DNA of 34,139 nt, from assembly GCA_009773765.1 (NCBI GenBank), contig WTWZ01000025.1, positions 1 to 34,139 of the forward strand, in the 5' to 3' direction. The notes beneath the pieces are model-generated. The model was not told where the DNA came from, did no database searches, and saw only the letters and a program-made list of their open reading frames with translations. Of this stretch, positions 2 through 32,485 are shown piece after piece. Within the stretch, counting starts at the first letter, position 1. Every line of letters starts with the position of its first letter. A program made the position numbers and the translations under genes. The DNA is from Prolixibacteraceae bacterium. Lineage in GTDB: Bacteria > Bacteroidota > Bacteroidia > Bacteroidales > Prolixibacteraceae.

Positions 2-3000
2 TTATTTATAAAGCCATATTTTCAATAACGATAATAATTTTTGCACATCCACCGGTTTCGGTATGTAATCGTTGGCCCCGCTGTCGATGGCTTTCTGATA
101 ATCCTCTTTCATTGCCTTGGCCGAAAGGGTAATGATAGGTATGTTTTTTGTTTCAGGCGTACTTCTTATTATTTTCATTGCCTCGTACCCATCCATAACA
201 GGCATCATAATATCCATTAAAACCAGATCGATAACTGAATTGTTTTTCAGCATGTCGATGGCTGCGGCTCCGTTTTCTGCTTCAAAAACTTCAATTTCCC
301 GTTCTTCAAGAATTTGTGCAATGGCAAACACATTACGGATGTCGTCGTCAACCACTAAAACTTTTTTGCCTTTAAAGGTAACGCTTTCAGTAATTTCCGG
401 CACAACCTTTTGTGATTTGTACGCTTTGTTGGCCACCTGGTGCAGGAAAAGGGTTACTTCGTCCATCAGCCTTTCGTCTGATTTCAAACCTTTTATCACG
501 ATGGAATCGGAAAATTTTTGCAGTTCGCGCAACTCTTTTCCCGAAAGTTCCCTTGCTGTATGAATGATTACATTGGGGATAGGCACATCCCCGGCTTTAA
601 GTTTTCGGAGGAGTTCGTTGCCGGAAAAATCGGGCAGTCCCAAATCGAGGATGATGCAATCGAAAGGCCTGGTGACAATCATTTCGTAGGCTTGCTGCCC
701 GGTTTTAGCTTCGTGTAAAACAAGGTCTTTATTTTGAAACAGCAAATGAATAGCTTCGCGGGTGGATGGATCGTCTTCTACCACAAGGATTTGCTTGTAA
801 TCTGACAATGTATTGTTTTCAATGTTTTTCGAAATATTCCTGAATTTTTCTGATTCCGGCGTGGTGAGCTCTTCAATTTCGTCGAGAATTGAGTCATCAA
901 TACGGGAAACAAGGTGCAGGGGGAGCCTGCTGGTGAATTTGTTTTCGCCCAGCTTTTGTAAATCGGCAGAATCGCTAAGGCTGTCAGAAATGATTATAGC
1001 CTCGGGTAAAAATTTTTCAGCTAGTTCAATTCCGTCGTTAACCCCCGCCGCCACCAGGCCATTGAAGTTGCGCTTATGGCAAAGCTCAAGTAGTTTTTGC
1101 GCTTTTTCTTTTTCGTTGTGAATAATTAAAACCATCAACCGTTGAACCGCCGAACTCCTGTCGTCTTCAATAAAAACCGGCAGTCCTTCACTTTTTTGCT
1201 TATGTTCAGCAATTACCTGGTTGCTTTGTATTTTGAATTTTATGTTGTATTCCAAAGCGGCTTTTTCGTCAGCCAGGTTTTTGTAGCCAATTCCAACCAG
1301 GTTGCTGTCGAGCGGCAGGTAAACAGTAAAAACCGAACCTTTCCCTTCAACGCTTTCAACATGAATTTCACCGCCTAAAACGCGGATAAGTTGTTTTGAA
1401 ATGGAAAGCCCCAAACCGGTGCCGCCATATTTTCTCGAAATGCTTCCATCGGCCTGCTGGAAGGCTTCGAAAATATCATCGATTTTGGATTGGGGAATTC
1501 CTACGCCAGTATCTTCAACGGCTATAAAAAATGTATTGTCAGGTTTTAAATTCGGATTTAACAGATTTACTCTTGACGTGGTTAGCCCTATGTTAACTTT
1601 TACCCCACCGTTGGTGGTAAATTTAAACGCATTTGACAGCAGGTTTTTAATAATCTGCATCAGCCGCTGTTTGTCTGAAAAAACAAAACCCGGAAAACCA
1701 ACTGTCATGTTTACCCCAAAGGATAATCCTTTATTATCGGCCACCGGTTTAAAGTTGTGCAATATTTCCGATTTTATTTCTTCTGTGTTCACCTGGTCGA
1801 AATTGTAAGTCATTTTTCCAGCTTCAATTTTCGATAAATCGAGGATTTCATTGATCAGTTCGACTAAATCCTTGCCGCTCTTGTAAATGATTTTTACAGA
1901 TTTCAGTTGTTCCTCGTTCAGGTTTCCTTTTTTGTTTTCACTTAATAATTTCGAAAGAATAAGTAAACTGTTGAGCGGTGTGCGCAGTTCATGCGACATA
2001 TTGGCCAGAAATTCCGATTTGTACTGGCTGGCCATTTTCAGTTCCCTGTTCATTTCGCGCAGTTTTTCCTGCTGGATATTGAGGTGTTTTTCGTTTTCGG
2101 ATAAAATTTTGGTTTGTTCGGCCAGTTCTTCGTTGGCTACCCTGAGTTCCTCTTCCTGTGATTTTAATTCCTCGTTTGCCACCCTTAATTCCTCTTCCTG
2201 AGCCCTTAGTTCTTCGTGCCGCGCCCTTAATTCTTCCTGCTGCTGTTTAAGCTGGTCGTTTATTGCCTGCAATTCTTCCTGCTGGGCGTTTAATTTCTCA
2301 TTTCTCAACCGAACTTCTATTTCCAGTTTTTTTATTGTTGTCACATCTTTTGAAATTCCGAATGTACCAATACATTTTCCAGTTTCGTCATACATTGGGA
2401 GTTTAGTAACCGATGTCCAAAGTTCATCACCGTTTTCATCAGTTCCCTGTCTGATTTCGTCAATGAAACCTTTCCCTTTTTTGATAATTTCCTGTTCTTC
2501 ATCGAAATATCTTTTGGCATCTTTTGGAGGATGGAAATCGAAATCGGACTTACCCAGTATATCGTCTGAAGATTTTGCTTCAAATAGTGGGACCATCGAC
2601 TCGCTAACGCGCAGAAATTTACTGTCTGTATTTTTAAAATAAACGTAATCGGGCAAAGTTTTCAGCATCGAATCAAGCAGGGCTTTTTCCCGAATCAGGT
2701 TTTCCTTGATAGTGATGTTTTCCTGCAGTTCTATTTTTAGTTTTTCATCGCGCAATTTTAACTCTTCCGACTGTTCCAGCGTTTTGTCGAGCAGCTCTTT
2801 ATGCCGGTAACGCGCAACCGCGGCGCCGAGGTTTACATTAATTTTTTCGGCAACCAGTTTCATAAATTCAATTTTCAGTTCCGAAAACCCGTTAACAGGG
2901 GCAAGTTCGATCACACCCTGTATCCGGCTATTGTAATGCATTGGCAGCAGGTAAATTTTTTCGGGTACAATTTCACCGCTTGCACTGTAAACTTTCAGGA

Positions 3001-4276
3001 ATTTTTCTTTTGTGTTAACAATTTGCAGTTCTTTATGCAGGGCGGCTCCCCCAACCAGGTTTTCACCGGGCCTGATAATTTTTTTCACTTCATCAATATC
3101 CAGTCCAACCGTTCCGGTAAGTTCCAGATGTTCAAGCACTTCATCAAAAACGTAAACTGCCCCCATTTCTGCTTCCAGAAAATGACTAAGCCACGTAATA
3201 ATCCTTCCCGACAATTCTCTTACTGTGAAGTTTCCGCGCATTTGGTCTTCCAGGCGGTTTAACCCGTTTTGCAGCCAGATTTCCCTGTCGTTTTTCAGTT
3301 TGATTTGCTCGAGCCGGGCGGCCATCATGTTGAGCGAAACCGTCAGTTTATCTTCATCCGATCTGGGTTTTAGTTTAATGCTGTAATCGCCGTTTGCCAC
3401 CTTGTCCGAATATGATACAATTTCCTGTAACCCCACCTGAATTTCTGAAAATGCCCTCGAAAGATCGCCGATTTCGTTTTCGGTGTCGAAATTTACCGAG
3501 GTGCTTAAATTCCCTTTTGCAATTTTTTTGAAATTGTCGGCCAAACGGTTTAACGGATTGGAGATGGAGCGCGAAATGTACAGGGCAATCAATGTTCCGG
3601 TTGAAATCAGGATAAAAACAATCAGCGCTAATGAAAACACAAGCAGCCTGTTGATAAACCCGGTTAAGGTGTAAACAGCTTTTGAAGATTCCTGGGAAAT
3701 TGTATTTACTTTTCGGAAATTATCATAGAGTTTAGTCAGTTTTTGATCGGTTTTATCCTGAAAATAATCCCCGATGCCAAAGGTTACCTCATCAACCAAA
3801 ACCGCAGCATCGTTAGCTGTGTGCTGGATATCCTTAATTCTTGACGGAATAAACCTGACAAAACTTTTAAACTGATTGCCAAATTGCTCTACTTTTTTGA
3901 TATCATAACCGGCGCCTTCCTTGAAAATGTCGTAAAACAACGGCAACCACTCTTCCCGGGGCATTGCCTGCATAAAACTGTCAATCTTCGAAAATGTAAA
4001 TGCAATGCTATGGGCTTTTTTAAAGTGACTGACAGAAGTCTCAAGGTCATTCATATTCCCCGAAATTTCGCACTTATAAAAATACATGGCGCCGGTTTGA
4101 AAATTTTCGACAAACTCAAGTTGTTTGTTTACCACAACAACAACTGACTGGCTTATTTTTAACAAATAGCTGGTAACCAGACCCATAACTATAAGGCTGG
4201 CGATAAACATATAAATAAGAACTGCCAGTTTTGATTTAACATTCAAATTCAAAAAACGTGTTTTAATACTGCCCAT
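2..4276 (-). CDS. Hybrid sensor histidine kinase with GAF, PAS and three receiver-like domains
   Basis: Membrane sensor kinase of 1424 residues, ligand unknown. Order seen: TM helix about 15-40, extracytoplasmic region about 41-207, TM helix about 210-234, HAMP 235-285 with a second HAMP-like stretch to about 325, GAF about 350-490, PAS about 530-645 (PDYVYFKN), a heptad coiled coil about 655-750, HisKA with FLANMSHELRTPLN (His762), HATPase (NLLSNAFKFT, EDTGVGIP, GGTGLGLS). Then come a degenerate receiver about 1045-1130 and two intact receivers with phospho-acceptors Asp1211 (LDLGLPD) and Asp1355 (MDIMMPVMDG). I start at the ATG at 4276; a TTG three codons upstream would also be open. The stop is at 2-4, so the gene is complete. 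Family role: multistep phosphorelay. No partner regulator is visible on this side. It is divergent from the gene at 4700. Confidence 0.95.
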   Translation of the reverse strand: MGSIKTRFLNLNVKSKLAVLIYMFIASLIVMGLVTSYLLKISQSVVVVVNKQLEFVENFQTGAMYFYKCEISGNMNDLETSVSHFKKAHSIAFTFSKIDSFMQAMPREEWLPLFYDIFKEGAGYDIKKVEQFGNQFKSFVRFIPSRIKDIQHTANDAAVLVDEVTFGIGDYFQDKTDQKLTKLYDNFRKVNTISQESSKAVYTLTGFINRLLVFSLALIVFILISTGTLIALYISRSISNPLNRLADNFKKIAKGNLSTSVNFDTENEIGDLSRAFSEIQVGLQEIVSYSDKVANGDYSIKLKPRSDEDKLTVSLNMMAARLEQIKLKNDREIWLQNGLNRLEDQMRGNFTVRELSGRIITWLSHFLEAEMGAVYVFDEVLEHLELTGTVGLDIDEVKKIIRPGENLVGGAALHKELQIVNTKEKFLKVYSASGEIVPEKIYLLPMHYNSRIQGVIELAPVNGFSELKIEFMKLVAEKINVNLGAAVARYRHKELLDKTLEQSEELKLRDEKLKIELQENITIKENLIREKALLDSMLKTLPDYVYFKNTDSKFLRVSESMVPLFEAKSSDDILGKSDFDFHPPKDAKRYFDEEQEIIKKGKGFIDEIRQGTDENGDELWTSVTKLPMYDETGKCIGTFGISKDVTTIKKLEIEVRLRNEKLNAQQEELQAINDQLKQQQEELRARHEELRAQEEELRVANEELKSQEEELRVANEELAEQTKILSENEKHLNIQQEKLREMNRELKMASQYKSEFLANMSHELRTPLNSLLILSKLLSENKKGNLNEEQLKSVKIIYKSGKDLVELINEILDLSKIEAGKMTYNFDQVNTEEIKSEILHNFKPVADNKGLSFGVNMTVGFPGFVFSDKQRLMQIIKNLLSNAFKFTTNGGVKVNIGLTTSRVNLLNPNLKPDNTFFIAVEDTGVGIPQSKIDDIFEAFQQADGSISRKYGGTGLGLSISKQLIRVLGGEIHVESVEGKGSVFTVYLPLDSNLVGIGYKNLADEKAALEYNIKFKIQSNQVIAEHKQKSEGLPVFIEDDRSSAVQRLMVLIIHNEKEKAQKLLELCHKRNFNGLVAAGVNDGIELAEKFLPEAIIISDSLSDSADLQKLGENKFTSRLPLHLVSRIDDSILDEIEELTTPESEKFRNISKNIENNTLSDYKQILVVEDDPSTREAIHLLFQNKDLVLHEAKTGQQAYEMIVTRPFDCIILDLGLPDFSGNELLRKLKAGDVPIPNVIIHTARELSGKELRELQKFSDSIVIKGLKSDERLMDEVTLFLHQVANKAYKSQKVVPEITESVTFKGKKVLVVDDDIRNVFAIAQILEEREIEVFEAENGAAAIDMLKNNSVIDLVLMDIMMPVMDGYEAMKIIRSTPETKNIPIITLSAKAMKEDYQKAIDSGANDYIPKPVDVQKLLSLLKIWLYK

Positions 4277-4627
4277 TTTTGTCAATTCTGAAGTGGTTTC
4301 GTAAAAAGTGCAAAATATACAAAATAAACAAAATCTTTTCTGTTTTGTAATTCCTTGTTTGTAACTTGTATCCGGTAATTTGAATAAAAAATTCCTGTAC
4401 GCCAGCTTTTATTTATTTCCCGGATTCTCGCTACCTATTTATGTCCCATCGTGTTCAAACCAACAAATTATACTTGAGTTACAATTTTTTTGAAATGACT
4501 GATAGTAAAAATCGAAAGTGAAAATATTCTTTCCAAAAAATTCTGGGCACCCATAAAAATGCAAAACCCGGAAATATGGCTGGAATTGACTGGTTATAAT
4601 TCACACCCAGTTGATTAATAAAAAATA
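4277..4627. other. Intergenic region between divergent genes
   Basis: AT-rich spacer between the minus-strand hybrid kinase and the plus-strand secreted-protein gene. No convincing ORF. On the minus strand, 4311-4319 reads TATATTTTG, one base longer than the Bacteroidota -7 consensus and about 35 nt before the kinase ATG; it could be the kinase promoter, but I find no matching -33 element. Nothing else recognised before the palindrome at 4628. Confidence 0.4.
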
Positions 4628-27740: not shown

Positions 27741-27771
27741 ATTGTTTTATGTAAAAAAAAGTATAATTTTG
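27741..27771 (+). promoter_or_regulatory. Promoter of the signalling operon
   Basis: -33 ATTG (27741-27744), 19-nt spacer, -7 TAATTTTG (27764-27771), an exact TAnnTTTG. It lies 73 nt before the histidine kinase ATG and is the only good promoter seen for the five overlapping genes that follow. The rest of the 206-nt gap 27639-27844 is featureless. Confidence 0.65.
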
Positions 27772-27844
27772 AGCTGTCTGGTTAAATAGAAACCCTGTTT
27801 TGTGACAGACGAAGGAAACATTAAATTTTACTTATAATTTGTGA

Positions 27845-29359
27845 ATGGTTTTCTGGACGGAACTTACAGATAAAATCAATGGGATAACCCTTAATTTTCC
27901 TGACGAAAGAGAAAAGGAATACAGGGAGTTTTATTTTGAACGCTCATATAAAACCACACGTTTTGCCTATCTGATTTTATCAATTATATATGCTTTTTTC
28001 GGATATCTCGACAGCGTGGTGGCAGGCCAGTATTTTGGCCTTTTTATTATAATCCGTTCAATTGTTGTAATACTACTTTTGTTTGTATTTTTCTATTCCT
28101 TTTCAAAAAATTTTAGGCATAACTGGCAAACCTTAATATTTATTACCTATTTCGCCGGCGCAGTTGGCATTATTTTAATGCTGGTTTTATTGCCTGTTGT
28201 AGTGGTGTATAGCAGCGGGTTAATCCTGGTTTTTCTTGCCGGTTCTGTATTAATAAAACTTCGTTTTCTTGCTTTTTCCATTGCCAGTTGGCTGGTAATT
28301 TTTTTATACATTGTTGCAGGCATTGTTTGGAAAGTTGATTACGCTATTGTATTGTCAAATACATTTTTCTTCTCCGGGGCTATTTTAATAGGGATGATTG
28401 CAGCCTACCGGACCGAAGTATTTAACCGGGACAACTTTAACCTCTATTTGCAAATTGCAAAAAAGAATGTTCTAATTGAACATGCAAACCGAAATTTAGA
28501 GGATAAAGTTGAACAAAGAACTAAACTTCTGAATCACAGCAATAAAGAACTTCGGGAAGAGGTCCGGCGAAGGGCAATTGTCGAAAAGGAATTAATTGCA
28601 GCAAAAGAAAGGGCCGAAGAATCAGATAAACTGAAATCGGCATTTCTTGCCAACATGAGCCACGAAATCCGCACGCCAATGAATGGTATTTTAGGGTTTG
28701 CCAACCTGTTGCACGAGGCTGAAAACGAAGAAGAATTCAATGAGTTTGTTGATGCAATTATAAAAAGTGGCGAACACCTGTTGAACTTAATAAACGATAT
28801 TATTGATTTATCGAAAATAGAAGCCGGTATTCTGAAAATAGAAAAAAGCAATTTCGAATTAAACCGGTTAACACGGGAGATTTATGACATTTTCAGTGTG
28901 GAAACAAACGTAGTAACTAAAAATATAGATTTCAGTTACAGAGATGGTTTACCTGACAACAATTGTATGATTTATACCGACAGGGTCAGGTTAAAACAGA
29001 TTATGATTAATCTGGTTAACAATGCCTGCAAATATACCGACAGGGGAAGTATAGAATTTTATTATAAAATAAAAGGAAGTTCGCTGCATTTTGTGGTAAA
29101 AGATACAGGCATCGGGATACCCGAGGAGTCGCAGAAAGTTATATTCGACCGTTTTATGCAGGCATCTAACGGAAGGACAACAGGCAGGGATAGCACAGGA
29201 TTAGGCCTTTCTATTACAAACACATACCTGAATTTAATGGGGGGCAACATTTCTGTAAAAAGCAAGTTGGATGTTGGTTCAGAATTTTCGTTCACTTTGC
29301 CTGATATTTTTGAAAACCATAAACCCGTAACAAATGATGCAAGTAAATTGGGAAAATAA
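27845..29359 (+). CDS. Multi-pass membrane sensor histidine kinase
   Basis: 504 residues. The N-terminal 190 residues hold about six hydrophobic helices (about 42-58, 65-84, 97-118, 122-138, 142-160, 167-187) with short loops and no large external domain, as expected for sensing a lipophilic or membrane signal. A coiled coil (about 212-262) leads to HisKA with FLANMSHEIRTPMNGILGF (His273), then HATPase with MINLVNNACKYT, KDTGIGIPE (419-427) and TGLGLS (451-456). There is no receiver of its own: a separate receiver gene overlaps its last 26 nt. It is the first gene of a five-gene overlapping operon and resembles PhcS in layout; that comparison is inference. Confidence 0.93.
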   Translation: MVFWTELTDKINGITLNFPDEREKEYREFYFERSYKTTRFAYLILSIIYAFFGYLDSVVAGQYFGLFIIIRSIVVILLLFVFFYSFSKNFRHNWQTLIFITYFAGAVGIILMLVLLPVVVVYSSGLILVFLAGSVLIKLRFLAFSIASWLVIFLYIVAGIVWKVDYAIVLSNTFFFSGAILIGMIAAYRTEVFNRDNFNLYLQIAKKNVLIEHANRNLEDKVEQRTKLLNHSNKELREEVRRRAIVEKELIAAKERAEESDKLKSAFLANMSHEIRTPMNGILGFANLLHEAENEEEFNEFVDAIIKSGEHLLNLINDIIDLSKIEAGILKIEKSNFELNRLTREIYDIFSVETNVVTKNIDFSYRDGLPDNNCMIYTDRVRLKQIMINLVNNACKYTDRGSIEFYYKIKGSSLHFVVKDTGIGIPEESQKVIFDRFMQASNGRTTGRDSTGLGLSITNTYLNLMGGNISVKSKLDVGSEFSFTLPDIFENHKPVTNDASKLGK

Positions 29360-29726
29360 AATAATTTTGGTAGTTGACGATACAAAAATGAATTTTGTAG
29401 TATTAAAGATTCAACTACGAAAAACCAATGCCATTGTTCTATGGTTCGAAAACGGCAATGATGTGGTTGAATATGTAAAAAACGGAAATAAGGCAGACCT
29501 AATACTTATGGATATCAGGATGCCGGTTATGGATGGCATTGAAGCTTCAAGAATAATTAAAGAGTTTAATCCCGGTATTCCAATTGTTATTCAAACCGCC
29601 AGTGTTATGGGCAGCGCTTTTAATGATATAGCTTTGTCGAAGTGTGATGATACAATTTTTAAACCCATAGACAGGAATAAACTAATTGAAACAATTGCTA
29701 ACCAGTTTGAAAAATATTCAAAATAA
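29334..29726 (+). CDS. Stand-alone receiver domain protein
   Basis: 130 residues, one CheY-like receiver and nothing else. Acidic pocket VVDD (13-16), phospho-acceptor Asp60 (LILMDIRMPVMDG), the switch Thr in IQTAS and the conserved Lys in FKPIDR near 113. It begins inside the 3' end of the kinase gene in another frame (ATG at 29334 or 29337), and its stop shares a base with the ATG of the next gene, so translation is probably coupled on both sides. With no output domain it most likely shuttles phosphate between the membrane kinase and another partner, or acts as a phosphate sink. Confidence 0.9.
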   Translation: MMQVNWENKIILVVDDTKMNFVVLKIQLRKTNAIVLWFENGNDVVEYVKNGNKADLILMDIRMPVMDGIEASRIIKEFNPGIPIVIQTASVMGSAFNDIALSKCDDTIFKPIDRNKLIETIANQFEKYSK

Positions 29727-30805
29727 TGATAAGAGTACAAAACCCGGGTCAACGATACAATATTTCTGTACTTTTTGTTGATGACAATGAAACCATAAGA
29801 CAGCTTTACCGAAGAATCCTGGAAAAGCATGTAAATCATTTATATATCGCTGAGAATGGTTCGCATGGGCTGGAACTTTACCTGAAACATAAACCCGACC
29901 TGGTTATTACCGATATGGTAATGCCAGTAATGAACGGGTTGGAAATGGTGAAGGAAATTAAAAAAATTGCCCCCGAGGCCAAATTCGTTGTAATGTCGGC
30001 CTACAGCGAGAAAGATAGTTTTATTGAATCTATCCATTTGGGGGTTGACGGGTATTTAATGAAGCCGGTCGAAGCCAAAAAACTATTGTCGCTGATTGAT
30101 GAATTTGCCGGAATTACCCTGATGAAATGGGAACTTGAAGCAAAGGAAAAAAAACGCCAGGAAGCCGAGGAAAATATGAAAAAATCGTTGGAAGAAAAGG
30201 ATGTCCTGCTTCGCGAAGTGCACCACAGGGTTAAGAACAATATGCAAATCATATCAAGCATTTTAAGCATGCAAAGCCGGAATATTGTTGAACCGCGGTT
30301 AAAGGAAGTCCTTCAGGAAAGCCAGAACAGGATCCACTCGATGGCGCTAATACATGAAAACCTGTACAACCATAAAAGCTTGGCCAATATCATGTTTTCG
30401 TCTTACATTAAAAGTTTAACCGGCAATATTGCCAGAACTTACTCCAGCCAGCAGGCAAATATCCAGTTCGACTATCAGATAGACGATGCTTATCTTCCGA
30501 TGGATTTGGCAATTCCATGTGGTTTAATAATAAACGAACTGATTTCAAATTCGTTTAAATATGCATTTGTAAACCGGCCTTCAGGCGTTATCAGCATTCA
30601 TTTTAAAAATATAAATAACAACGAATTTTTGCTTACTGTTGCTGATAACGGAGTTGGTATCCCTAAGGAAGTCAATATTTTAAAAACCAAATCATTAGGA
30701 ATGAAAATTCTGCACAAACTGGTACAACAAATCGAAGGGGAATTAAAATATGATTTTACAATCGGAACAAAATTTAACATTCAATTTAAATCAACCAATA
30801 AATGA
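29726..30805 (+). CDS. Receiver - histidine kinase fusion (HisKA_2 type)
   Basis: 359 residues. Receiver about 12-125 with phospho-acceptor Asp63 (VITDMVMPVMNG) and Lys113. Then a charged helix about 134-160, a HisKA_2 dimerisation domain LLREVHHRVKNNMQIISSIL (161-180, likely His167) and a HATPase with LIINELISNSFKYAF and VADNGVGIPKE. There is no transmembrane segment. The receiver thus precedes the kinase, the reverse of a hybrid kinase, so it should be a cytoplasmic kinase whose activity is set by phosphorylation. PhcR of Ralstonia has the same receiver-then-kinase plan. The gene overlaps its upstream neighbour by 1 nt and its downstream neighbour by 4 nt. Confidence 0.92.
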   Translation: MIRVQNPGQRYNISVLFVDDNETIRQLYRRILEKHVNHLYIAENGSHGLELYLKHKPDLVITDMVMPVMNGLEMVKEIKKIAPEAKFVVMSAYSEKDSFIESIHLGVDGYLMKPVEAKKLLSLIDEFAGITLMKWELEAKEKKRQEAEENMKKSLEEKDVLLREVHHRVKNNMQIISSILSMQSRNIVEPRLKEVLQESQNRIHSMALIHENLYNHKSLANIMFSSYIKSLTGNIARTYSSQQANIQFDYQIDDAYLPMDLAIPCGLIINELISNSFKYAFVNRPSGVISIHFKNINNNEFLLTVADNGVGIPKEVNILKTKSLGMKILHKLVQQIEGELKYDFTIGTKFNIQFKSTNK

Positions 30806-31581
30806 ATTCAAATTACAAAATTTTAATTGTCGAAGACGAAATTTTAGTCGCAACCGATATTCAGGAAAGTCTTGAAAGTTTGGGCTATAAAGTGCAGGGT
30901 ATTGCTGATACGGGTTTGAAAGCCATTGAAGCTGTTCAAAAGGAATTGCCCGATTTAATTTTGATGGATATCAATTTAAAAGGCGAAATGACAGGTATTG
31001 AAGCAGCCAAACTCATCTCAAAGGACAACGATGTTCCAATAATTTATTTAACTGCAAATGCTGATTTGGATACAGTAAATAAAGCAAAGGTAGCATTGCC
31101 ATATGGGTACATCATAAAACCGTTTAACGACAAAGATTTGCAAACCAACATCGAAATAGCCATTTTCAAGTTTACCAGCGATTTAAAAATGAAAATGGAA
31201 AGCGAACAGTTCAATACTTTTTTCGATTTAAAGGATCATGGTAAAAATCAAATCATCGTTCATGCTGATAAAGGGCTTGAAAAAATTAATATAAACGATG
31301 TATATTTTATCGAAAAAGACCATAATCAAACTATCATCCATTTATTTGAAGACGAAGTGGTTACGAAAAGAACTTTTTCTGAAATCACAGGGCTGTTCCC
31401 AAAAAAGAATTTTATACAGGTAAGTAAATACTTTGTTATTAATGCTTTAAAAGTTTATGCTGTAAAATATCCTGAAGTTATCATTGCCGATAAAATGACT
31501 GTAATTTCGGTTGATGAAGATTACAGGGAGATGATAAAAATGATTAATAGCGAACTTGGTGAAATTATTGACAATGAATAA
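30802..31581 (+). CDS. LytTR-family response regulator
   Basis: 259 residues. Receiver about 1-125 with EDE (11-13), phospho-acceptor Asp56 (LILMDINLKGEMTG) and Lys in YIIKPF. The C-terminal LytTR DNA-binding domain, about 155-250, reads DVYFIEKDHNQTIIHL and KRTFSEITGLFPKKNFIQV. The usual (R/H)(R/K)SY(L/I)VN segment is SKYFVIN here, a mild departure. It is the only DNA-binding protein of the operon and so its likely transcriptional output, with the ATGA overlap to the upstream kinase implying tight co-expression. LytTR regulators often bind paired direct repeats; I did not find such a pair in the operon promoter. Confidence 0.93.
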   Translation: MNSNYKILIVEDEILVATDIQESLESLGYKVQGIADTGLKAIEAVQKELPDLILMDINLKGEMTGIEAAKLISKDNDVPIIYLTANADLDTVNKAKVALPYGYIIKPFNDKDLQTNIEIAIFKFTSDLKMKMESEQFNTFFDLKDHGKNQIIVHADKGLEKININDVYFIEKDHNQTIIHLFEDEVVTKRTFSEITGLFPKKNFIQVSKYFVINALKVYAVKYPEVIIADKMTVISVDEDYREMIKMINSELGEIIDNE

Positions 31582-32485
31582 TTCTGACTACAAAGATGAA
31601 GTGTTGTTAATGGACATTGAACAAATAGACATTGACAACTACATCAAAGAAATTTTTGCCAAAAACGGGCCAGACCAGGAAGATTATCATACATTTTATA
31701 GTTTGGTAAACCAGATTAATGCGGAAGATGTAGAAAATTTTCGTCAAAAAGTTGTGCCAATTTTAAATCCTGATTCACTGTTTGGATTCTCCTATACCAA
31801 ACCGTTTGGTTATAGCGGCGACTTTTTTATTATAGAAAAAATATACCAGTATTACATAAGCCCCGATGAACGTTACCGGAAATGGGATGAATTTTTACAT
31901 TCGGCAGGGGCCGTTATCGCAGTTAGAAACAGGAAAACACTGGCTATCGAAATTTTTGAGGAGTTAAATAATAAAGCGGCGGGATTGCGCCAGGACGTTT
32001 TGATTTTGGGAAGCGGCCCTGTTAGCGAAACTTACGAGTTTTTTGAAAGAAATCCCAATAGCCCGCTGATTTTTGAAATGCTTGATTTAGATAAAAGAGC
32101 AATTTCATACGCAAAAAGCAAAAACCGGAAATACCTGAATGCAATGACATTTCACAATGCCAACGTAATTCGGTTTATCCCCGGCAGAAAATTCGATTTA
32201 ATTTGGAGCGCAGGTTTGTTCGATTATTTTAAAAGCAAGCATTTTGTGTATTTGCTTAAAAGATATTACGAATACCTGAAAGATGACGGTGAAATGATAA
32301 TCGGTAATTTCAATGTCGAAAACCCCTCGCGGAGAAGTATGGAAATACTGGGCGATTGGTTTTTGTATCATCGTTCGCCTGAAGAACTTAAAGGTTTTGC
32401 TATACAGGCCGGAATTGAAGATTCGAAAATTGCAGTTATTCAGGAACCATTGGGAATAAACCTTTTCTTGAGAGTTAAAAAGTAG
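31574..32485 (+). CDS. PhcB-like SAM-dependent methyltransferase
   Basis: 303 residues from the ATG at 31574, which overlaps the LytTR gene by 8 nt; an upstream TTG is less likely. A helical N-terminal region about 1-135 contains YTKPFGYSGDFFIIEKIY (74-91), the mark of the methyltransferases annotated as 3-hydroxypalmitate methyl ester synthases (PhcB group). Then comes a class I SAM-binding core: motif I VLILGSGPVSE (142-152), an acidic motif-II end FEMLDLD (167-173), and IWSAGLFDYF (210-219). In Ralstonia PhcB methylates a 3-hydroxy fatty acid to make a diffusible signal. Its place at the end of a two-component operon suggests that it makes the signal sensed by the membrane kinase. Substrate unproven. 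Confidence 0.82.
   Translation: MNNSDYKDEVLLMDIEQIDIDNYIKEIFAKNGPDQEDYHTFYSLVNQINAEDVENFRQKVVPILNPDSLFGFSYTKPFGYSGDFFIIEKIYQYYISPDERYRKWDEFLHSAGAVIAVRNRKTLAIEIFEELNNKAAGLRQDVLILGSGPVSETYEFFERNPNSPLIFEMLDLDKRAISYAKSKNRKYLNAMTFHNANVIRFIPGRKFDLIWSAGLFDYFKSKHFVYLLKRYYEYLKDDGEMIIGNFNVENPSRRSMEILGDWFLYHRSPEELKGFAIQAGIEDSKIAVIQEPLGINLFLRVKK

Follow-up and report, generated by a model that had tools for sequence, protein, structure and literature searches.

In Ralstonia, the methyltransferase PhcB makes and the kinase PhcS senses a fatty acid methyl ester signal, in a system with the gene order phcB-phcS-phcR-phcQ that PMC8578825 calls genus-specific; homologous proteins are described from Cupriavidus and Paraburkholderia in PMC6989110. 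Here we analysed a 34,139-nucleotide stretch of DNA (the window: positions 1 to 34,139 of contig WTWZ01000025.1, assembly GCA_009773765.1) from a Prolixibacteraceae bacterium, in which five overlapping genes on the forward strand, A-B-C-D-E, occupy positions 27,845 to 32,485. This operon probably encodes a PhcB/PhcS-like pair of signal synthase and sensor with a LytTR output, serving a self-made methylated, probably acyl-type signal. As references we used a locus from Ralstonia sp. SET104 (L120), where a methyltransferase, a six-transmembrane (6-TM) kinase, a receiver-kinase and a receiver protein stand consecutively as B-S-R-Q, and one from R. pickettii (L117), where B, S and Q are visible and the R frame is hidden behind an overlapping reverse open reading frame (ORF). 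The histidine that PMC11960443 names at position 230 of PhcS is at that position in both, and because of this and of the gene order in L120 we take them to be phc operons. Like phcBSRQ, the A-E operon brings together a receiver-kinase, one more receiver protein, and a methyltransferase and a 6-TM kinase whose enzyme and sensor families are those of PhcB and PhcS; unlike it, the operon has the methyltransferase last instead of first and carries an extra lone receiver, B.

Gene E (31,574-32,485, +; 303 aa) shows generic class I S-adenosylmethionine (SAM)-dependent methyltransferase domains in Pfam and, judged by its sequence, is a member of the PhcB family. BLASTP aligned it with R. pickettii PhcB at 27% identity over 248 aa (E 6e-23), and a full-length hhalign comparison of the E family with PhcB gave a probability of 99.9 over 245 columns. 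The N-terminal KPxGYxGD cap alone, which lies outside the SAM fold, still matched PhcB with a probability of 96.5, against at most 1.7 in 30 column shuffles and 0.5 for the reversed alignment. The motif itself is present in all 57 rows of our family tree (as KRxGYxGD in one). In E it reads KPFGYSGD and starts at residue 76, followed by VLILGSGP (142), WSAGLFDY (211) and WFLYHR (262); in the PhcB-like protein of P. graminis it starts at residue 219, so that E differs from the Phc enzyme in having about 140 residues fewer before it. A sequence search of E against solved structures retrieved generic SAM methyltransferases as best matches (best E 2e-4), and Foldseek with a predicted model (predicted local distance difference test, pLDDT, 73.4, the first 94 residues mostly low) matched many class I methyltransferases; neither gave a clue to the substrate. 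Two polyketide synthases carry the same kind of domain. An Enterobacter ludwigii plasmid (NZ_CP134637.1, L127:655-3792) encodes a type I polyketide synthase with one C-terminal domain of E's family, and a genome of the same order as ours (G582, L200:1639-9975) a 2778-residue polyketide synthase-like ORF with ketosynthase, acyltransferase, KR and DH domains by Pfam, whose C-terminus consists of two tandem PhcB-like methyltransferase-family domains. We infer that such fusions fit an acyl-type substrate.

Gene A (27,845-29,359, +; 504 aa) is a 6-TM sensor histidine kinase (Pfam HisKA 5e-22, HATPase_c 3e-25) with the motifs SHEIRTP at residue 272, NLVNNACKY at 389 and DTGIGIP at 420. Its sensor domain, residues 1-232 (27,845-28,540, +), comprises six hydrophobic segments, matches no Pfam family at E <= 1 and, by profile comparison, is homologous to the sensor of PhcS. 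We aligned 25 Bacteroidota sensors, 19 of them from methyltransferase-linked loci (including that of G790) and six from kinases without a methyltransferase, with 29 PhcS sensors; these were drawn, at less than 80% likeness to one another, from the 77 loci (out of 80) where PhcS had a match. The two profiles matched in hhalign with a probability of 97.8 (score 86.9, 191 columns), and with 93.5 when trimmed to the membrane part. Thirty column shuffles stayed at or below a probability of 1.7 and a score of 21.0, reversed alignments reached 0.4 and 0.1 (scores 12-16), and three other multi-TM families gave at most 0.3; a fourth such family found was the PhcS family itself, and so no control. A cyanobacterial kinase adjoining a methyltransferase of the family bridges the two groups of sensors, with BLASTP matches to A (E 2e-15) and to PhcS (E 2.7e-5).

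An AlphaFold2 (AF2) model of the sensor, built from an alignment of A with 24 PhcS-type sensors (pLDDT 83.6), had adenylyl cyclases as seven of its eight top solved matches in Foldseek, with TM-scores (query) of 0.48-0.63. Since PMC11606603 reports that the 6-TM domains of membrane-bound adenylyl cyclases serve as receptors for lipids, and PMC4821796 that the 6-TM anchor of a bacterial cyclase can be replaced by the CqsS quorum sensor, this modelled likeness is a hint that A may sense a lipid. CqsS/LqsS-type sensors and membrane adenylyl cyclases share with A a 6-TM domain feeding a kinase or a cyclase, and their ligands are described as lipophilic (PMC4821796, PMC11606603); the likeness to CqsS/LqsS is one of description, and the cyclase fold resemblance is weak.

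We surveyed the methyltransferase with an 11-row alignment (E <= 1e-10) in samples of 393 genomes from the order and 395 from the phylum, and found it in 25 and 13 of them respectively. Searched with the single protein, the class sample gave matches in 21 of 395 genomes, of which only our own and G330 matched most of the protein; the other matches, short and weak, were left out of the counts. Ten of the 25 order genomes share the arrangement of the A-E operon, [6-TM kinase with or without receiver]-[receiver-HisKA_2]-[receiver-LytTR]-methyltransferase (layout I; in G464 the kinase lies off the contig), and an eleventh, G790, has a degenerate copy. At this last locus (L201) neither the methyltransferase nor the LytTR gene is whole, each being broken or a fragment. 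Seven order genomes have layout II, methyltransferase-[6-TM hybrid kinase]-receiver (L041, L042, L183, L185, L186, L191, L193; no downstream receiver was seen in L193, and the kinase frame is split in L186). Layout II operons have the same methyltransferase and sensor families as the A-E operon and differ in that the methyltransferase comes first, the kinase ends in a receiver, a further receiver follows in six of the seven loci, and C and D are lacking. The remaining order genomes are four with no kinase next to the methyltransferase, G582 with its two polyketide synthase domains, and two whose neighbourhood was not assigned (G796, at a contig end, and G636). Altogether, a 6-TM kinase lies in the methyltransferase gene run of 17 of the 25 (layout I 9, degenerate 1, layout II 7). 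Layout I is spread over families f1, f108, f125, f147 and f159, and layout II over f8, f15 and f183.

The 13 phylum genomes are our own, eight of family f197, G330, G807, G1002 (two copies) and G1027 (weak). In seven of the eight f197 genomes the methyltransferase adjoins a hybrid kinase with two receivers (layout III), the eighth being a contig fragment. As in the A-E operon, layout III couples an enzyme of E's family with a multi-TM kinase; the kinase part of the two that we tested, L202 and L207, is LuxN-like. The difference lies in the type of sensor, which matched neither A's (hhalign probability 0.7) nor PhcS's (0.2). These f197 loci (L202-L207, L212) are possibly a second pairing of signal and receptor.

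We searched genome contigs with an alignment whose first row was the methyltransferase of the P. graminis plasmid; the best 80 of at least 583 confirmed stretches came nearly all from Burkholderiales. Sixteen of these 80 PhcB loci entered the 57-row tree, and L201, L211 and L212 were left out. The 16 PhcB rows formed one group (100/99) that did not include E; layouts I, II and III each formed one group as well, the layout II group lying close to that of layout I, in which E falls, far from PhcB. Thirty-five of the 38 rows from the phylum of the window grouped together (97/95), and the two polyketide synthase domains of G582 and the G807 sequence fell outside. E therefore belongs to the family but, judged by this tree, is not orthologous to PhcB.

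The position of the methyltransferase varies: it is first in phc and in layout II, last in layout I, and convergent with a 6-TM kinase and a response regulator on the plasmid of a cyanobacterium, Pseudanabaena (L013). Methyltransferase and 6-TM kinase thus stay paired while gene order and partner proteins differ, which argues for a functional link between them. Their pairwise distances also correlate, with r 0.79 across 18 Bacteroidota loci and r 0.94 across 34 loci, and none of 2000 permutations gave as high a value.

The genes between the pair diverge from the Phc scheme. Gene B (29,334-29,726, +; 130 aa; Response_reg 3e-22) is a stand-alone receiver, replaced by a receiver at the end of the kinase, within the kinase ORF, in L184, L187, L188, L190 and L192. 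Gene C (29,726-30,805, +; 359 aa) is a soluble kinase of the form receiver-HisKA_2-HATPase_c (Response_reg 8e-26, HisKA_2 6e-28). Its BLASTP match to PhcR, 18% over 372 residues (E 1e-9), is what two receiver-kinase proteins would give, and the kinase type differs, PhcR of L120 having HisKA in Pfam. Gene D (30,802-31,581, +; 259 aa; Response_reg 4e-23, LytTR 2e-9) is a DNA-binding regulator of the receiver-LytTR type; it had no significant BLASTP match to PhcQ (E 0.07), which in L120 shows Response_reg alone. C and D are layout counterparts of PhcR and PhcQ that, as far as the sequences go, are not demonstrated to be the same proteins.

The initial annotation had described a PhcBSRQ-like operon in a Bacteroidota genome, and much of its description stands. 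ORF calls gave the same five intact genes with overlaps of 26, 1, 4 and 8 nt, and Pfam domains together with the six hydrophobic segments bore out the gene types (membrane kinase, lone receiver, receiver-kinase, LytTR regulator and methyltransferase). The window's genome has 74 Por_Secre_tail matches at E <= 0.001, in line with the phylum assigned; among 14 control genomes only one, a Bacteroides, matched, and below the cut-off. The differing gene order, the additional receiver and the LytTR output were correctly noted, and two checks that it had proposed agree with it: the profile comparison of E with PhcB gave the 99.9 reported above, and the neighbourhood survey found the gene set conserved as layout I in five Bacteroidota families and in the same order in L036-L039. 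The assignment of Phc parts holds for E, also outside the SAM fold, and for the sensor of A by profile, and fails for C, with its HisKA_2 domain, and for D, with LytTR. "PhcBS-like synthase-sensor pair with a different output" fits the operon better than "PhcBSRQ-like".

We propose that the operon would work as a self-contained chemical signalling unit. E would methylate a small carboxylate or acyl-type metabolite, giving a small-molecule product that would be released, presumably by secretion, and then sensed by A through its 6-TM domain, inside the membrane, in the way that PhcS detects the PhcB ester. A would phosphorylate B, C and/or D; D would alter the transcription of its putative target genes through LytTR, and B and C might modulate or branch the relay. 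Such a unit could sense density. Among the candidate products of E is a 3-hydroxy fatty acid methyl ester, which we think more apt to prove wrong than right by a good measure; methylated acyl or polyketide-like compounds are other candidates.

Several results weigh against the operon being such a synthase-sensor pair. Identity between E and PhcB is just 21-28%, and E lies on a long branch outside the PhcB clade. In pairwise BLASTP the sensor of A, taken alone, did not match PhcS significantly (best E 0.055), a PhcS-sensor profile found no match in our whole genome in a search that had no positive control, and the Foldseek E-values of the cyclase matches are weak (0.16 to 0.74). Species kinship contributes to the mirror correlation between sensor and methyltransferase and inflates it. 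No conserved upstream site suggestive of autoregulation was seen. Methyltransferases of the family also stand without an adjacent kinase in four of the 25 order genomes (G498, G570, G703, G769) and in G011, G330, G807 and, for both copies, G1002; this type of enzyme is therefore able to act without the sensor. Conversely, the PhcS-type 6-TM sensor occurs in kinases with no methyltransferase nearby (L213-L218), and is therefore used more widely.

The solitary enzymes of these eight genomes and the sensors without a methyltransferase are what one would expect if E were an output or feedback enzyme, with A sensing an environmental lipophile and the methyltransferase modifying or detoxifying that compound or a membrane lipid, and E is indeed the last gene of layout I. 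We nevertheless regard this explanation as unlikely: layout II and phc both begin with the methyltransferase, the pair is found again with other output proteins, and the ligand of PhcS is the product of PhcB, the characterised relative (PMC8578825). Close linkage to a receptor would also suit an enzyme that methylates a protein, for example A itself, in the manner of the adaptation enzyme CheR, and E has a weak CheR match in Pfam (6e-4, below the cut-off). That match is limited to a portion of the shared SAM fold, relatives of E are C-terminal domains of polyketide synthases and occur also without receptors, and the product of PhcB is a fatty acid methyl ester (PMC8578825), all of which make a CheR-like role improbable. 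A plain two-component operon that a generic methyltransferase adjoins by accident, its Phc likeness due to common SAM and kinase folds, would account for the low pairwise identities and for the negative profile search in our genome; yet the non-generic parts match as well (cap 96.5, sensor 97.8) while shuffled, reversed and other multi-TM controls fail, and the linkage is found in 17 of 25 order-survey genomes, so that this is already disfavoured and we consider it very improbable. A genuine Phc system, gained from Betaproteobacteria through horizontal transfer and making 3-hydroxypalmitate or 3-hydroxymyristate methyl ester would share the synthase and sensor families, as observed, and is scarcely credible given the separate, long-branched groups of PhcB (100/99) and of the 35 of 38 phylum rows (97/95) and the lack of any demonstrated PhcR or PhcQ equivalent.

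With the synthase-sensor pair as the preferred reading, the survey takes on a wider meaning. The synthase and sensor families of Phc occur as a pair in eight families of Bacteroidota, in five of which the attached regulator is a different one, and Bacteroidota carrying the operon may use a methylated, lipid-like signal. Whether they do becomes directly testable, since the enzyme, the receptor and the output can be named, and the pairs provide comparative material for the ligand site of PhcS-type 6-TM receptors. More tentatively, and with doubt still outweighing confidence, PhcB/PhcS signalling could be one branch of an old and widespread class of systems whose signal, methylated and lipid-like, is made by a KPxGYxGD methyltransferase and received by a 6-TM kinase whose membrane domain resembles that of adenylyl cyclases; the Bacteroidota branch with its built-in, DNA-binding LytTR output would then be a small-molecule quorum system in the phylum. 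Quorum signals in Bacteroidetes are discussed in PMC9540692 and PMC10945367, in passages that do not mention PhcB, and among the matches listed from the open-access literature there was no report of PhcB/PhcS-like pairs in Bacteroidota.

Close to home, the operon is intact and conserved. The kinase and receiver motifs for phosphorylation and the SAM motifs are all in place across its proteins. E starts with ATG, with an in-frame TTG at 31,556, and is single-copy in its genome. Nonsynonymous and synonymous differences against two close relatives (for A, against L036 only) indicate selective constraint on the operon genes (pN 0.05-0.17 versus pS 0.65-0.81). The A-B-C-D-E order is identical in L036, L037, L038 and L039, A of L037 being cut by the contig end. 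Among 24 congeners, E is found at 72-80% identity with neighbouring genes visible in four (G012, G016, G019, G022), at a contig end in G018, and as a 23-residue tail at a contig end in G021; in G011 the copy is distant (41%) and the rest of the operon is missing. Gene C at E <= 1e-80 is confined to our genome and those same four congeners (5 of 25 genomes), so C and E co-occur where the assemblies permit testing.

A consensus promoter had also been reported ahead of gene A and did not withstand comparison with chance. The promoter-like sequence TTG-N19-TAATTTTG (27,742-27,771, +) has four matches in the window against 5.3 expected and is missing upstream of the L036 operon, the one relative tested. 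A sigma-70 scan was likewise at chance level (21 found, 19.5 expected), and the upstream regions of four relatives had no convincing block in common.

Tblastn of A's sensor against plasmids gave one weak match (E 0.02), located elsewhere on the Pseudanabaena plasmid, and missed the methyltransferase-adjacent kinase of that plasmid, although unfiltered pairwise BLASTP gives E 2e-15 for it; the BLAST low-complexity filter is likely behind the miss. Tblastn of the Pseudanabaena sensor returned its own record only. The weak match on the plasmid is a second sensor-like stretch, in a hypothetical protein (NC_019690.1, 160511-160798). In G330, the methyltransferase lies between ORFs that, read by eye, are globin-like and flavohaemoprotein-like (L046:7682-11184), and just upstream, on the opposite strand, is an ORF similar to gene D (24%, E 9e-6). 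The flanks of the A-E operon are ordinary, with DnaN and an exonuclease upstream and an FAA hydrolase downstream; distant from it, the window encodes at positions 2-4285 (-) a further hybrid kinase, of the HAMP-PAS-HisKA type and carrying two receivers.

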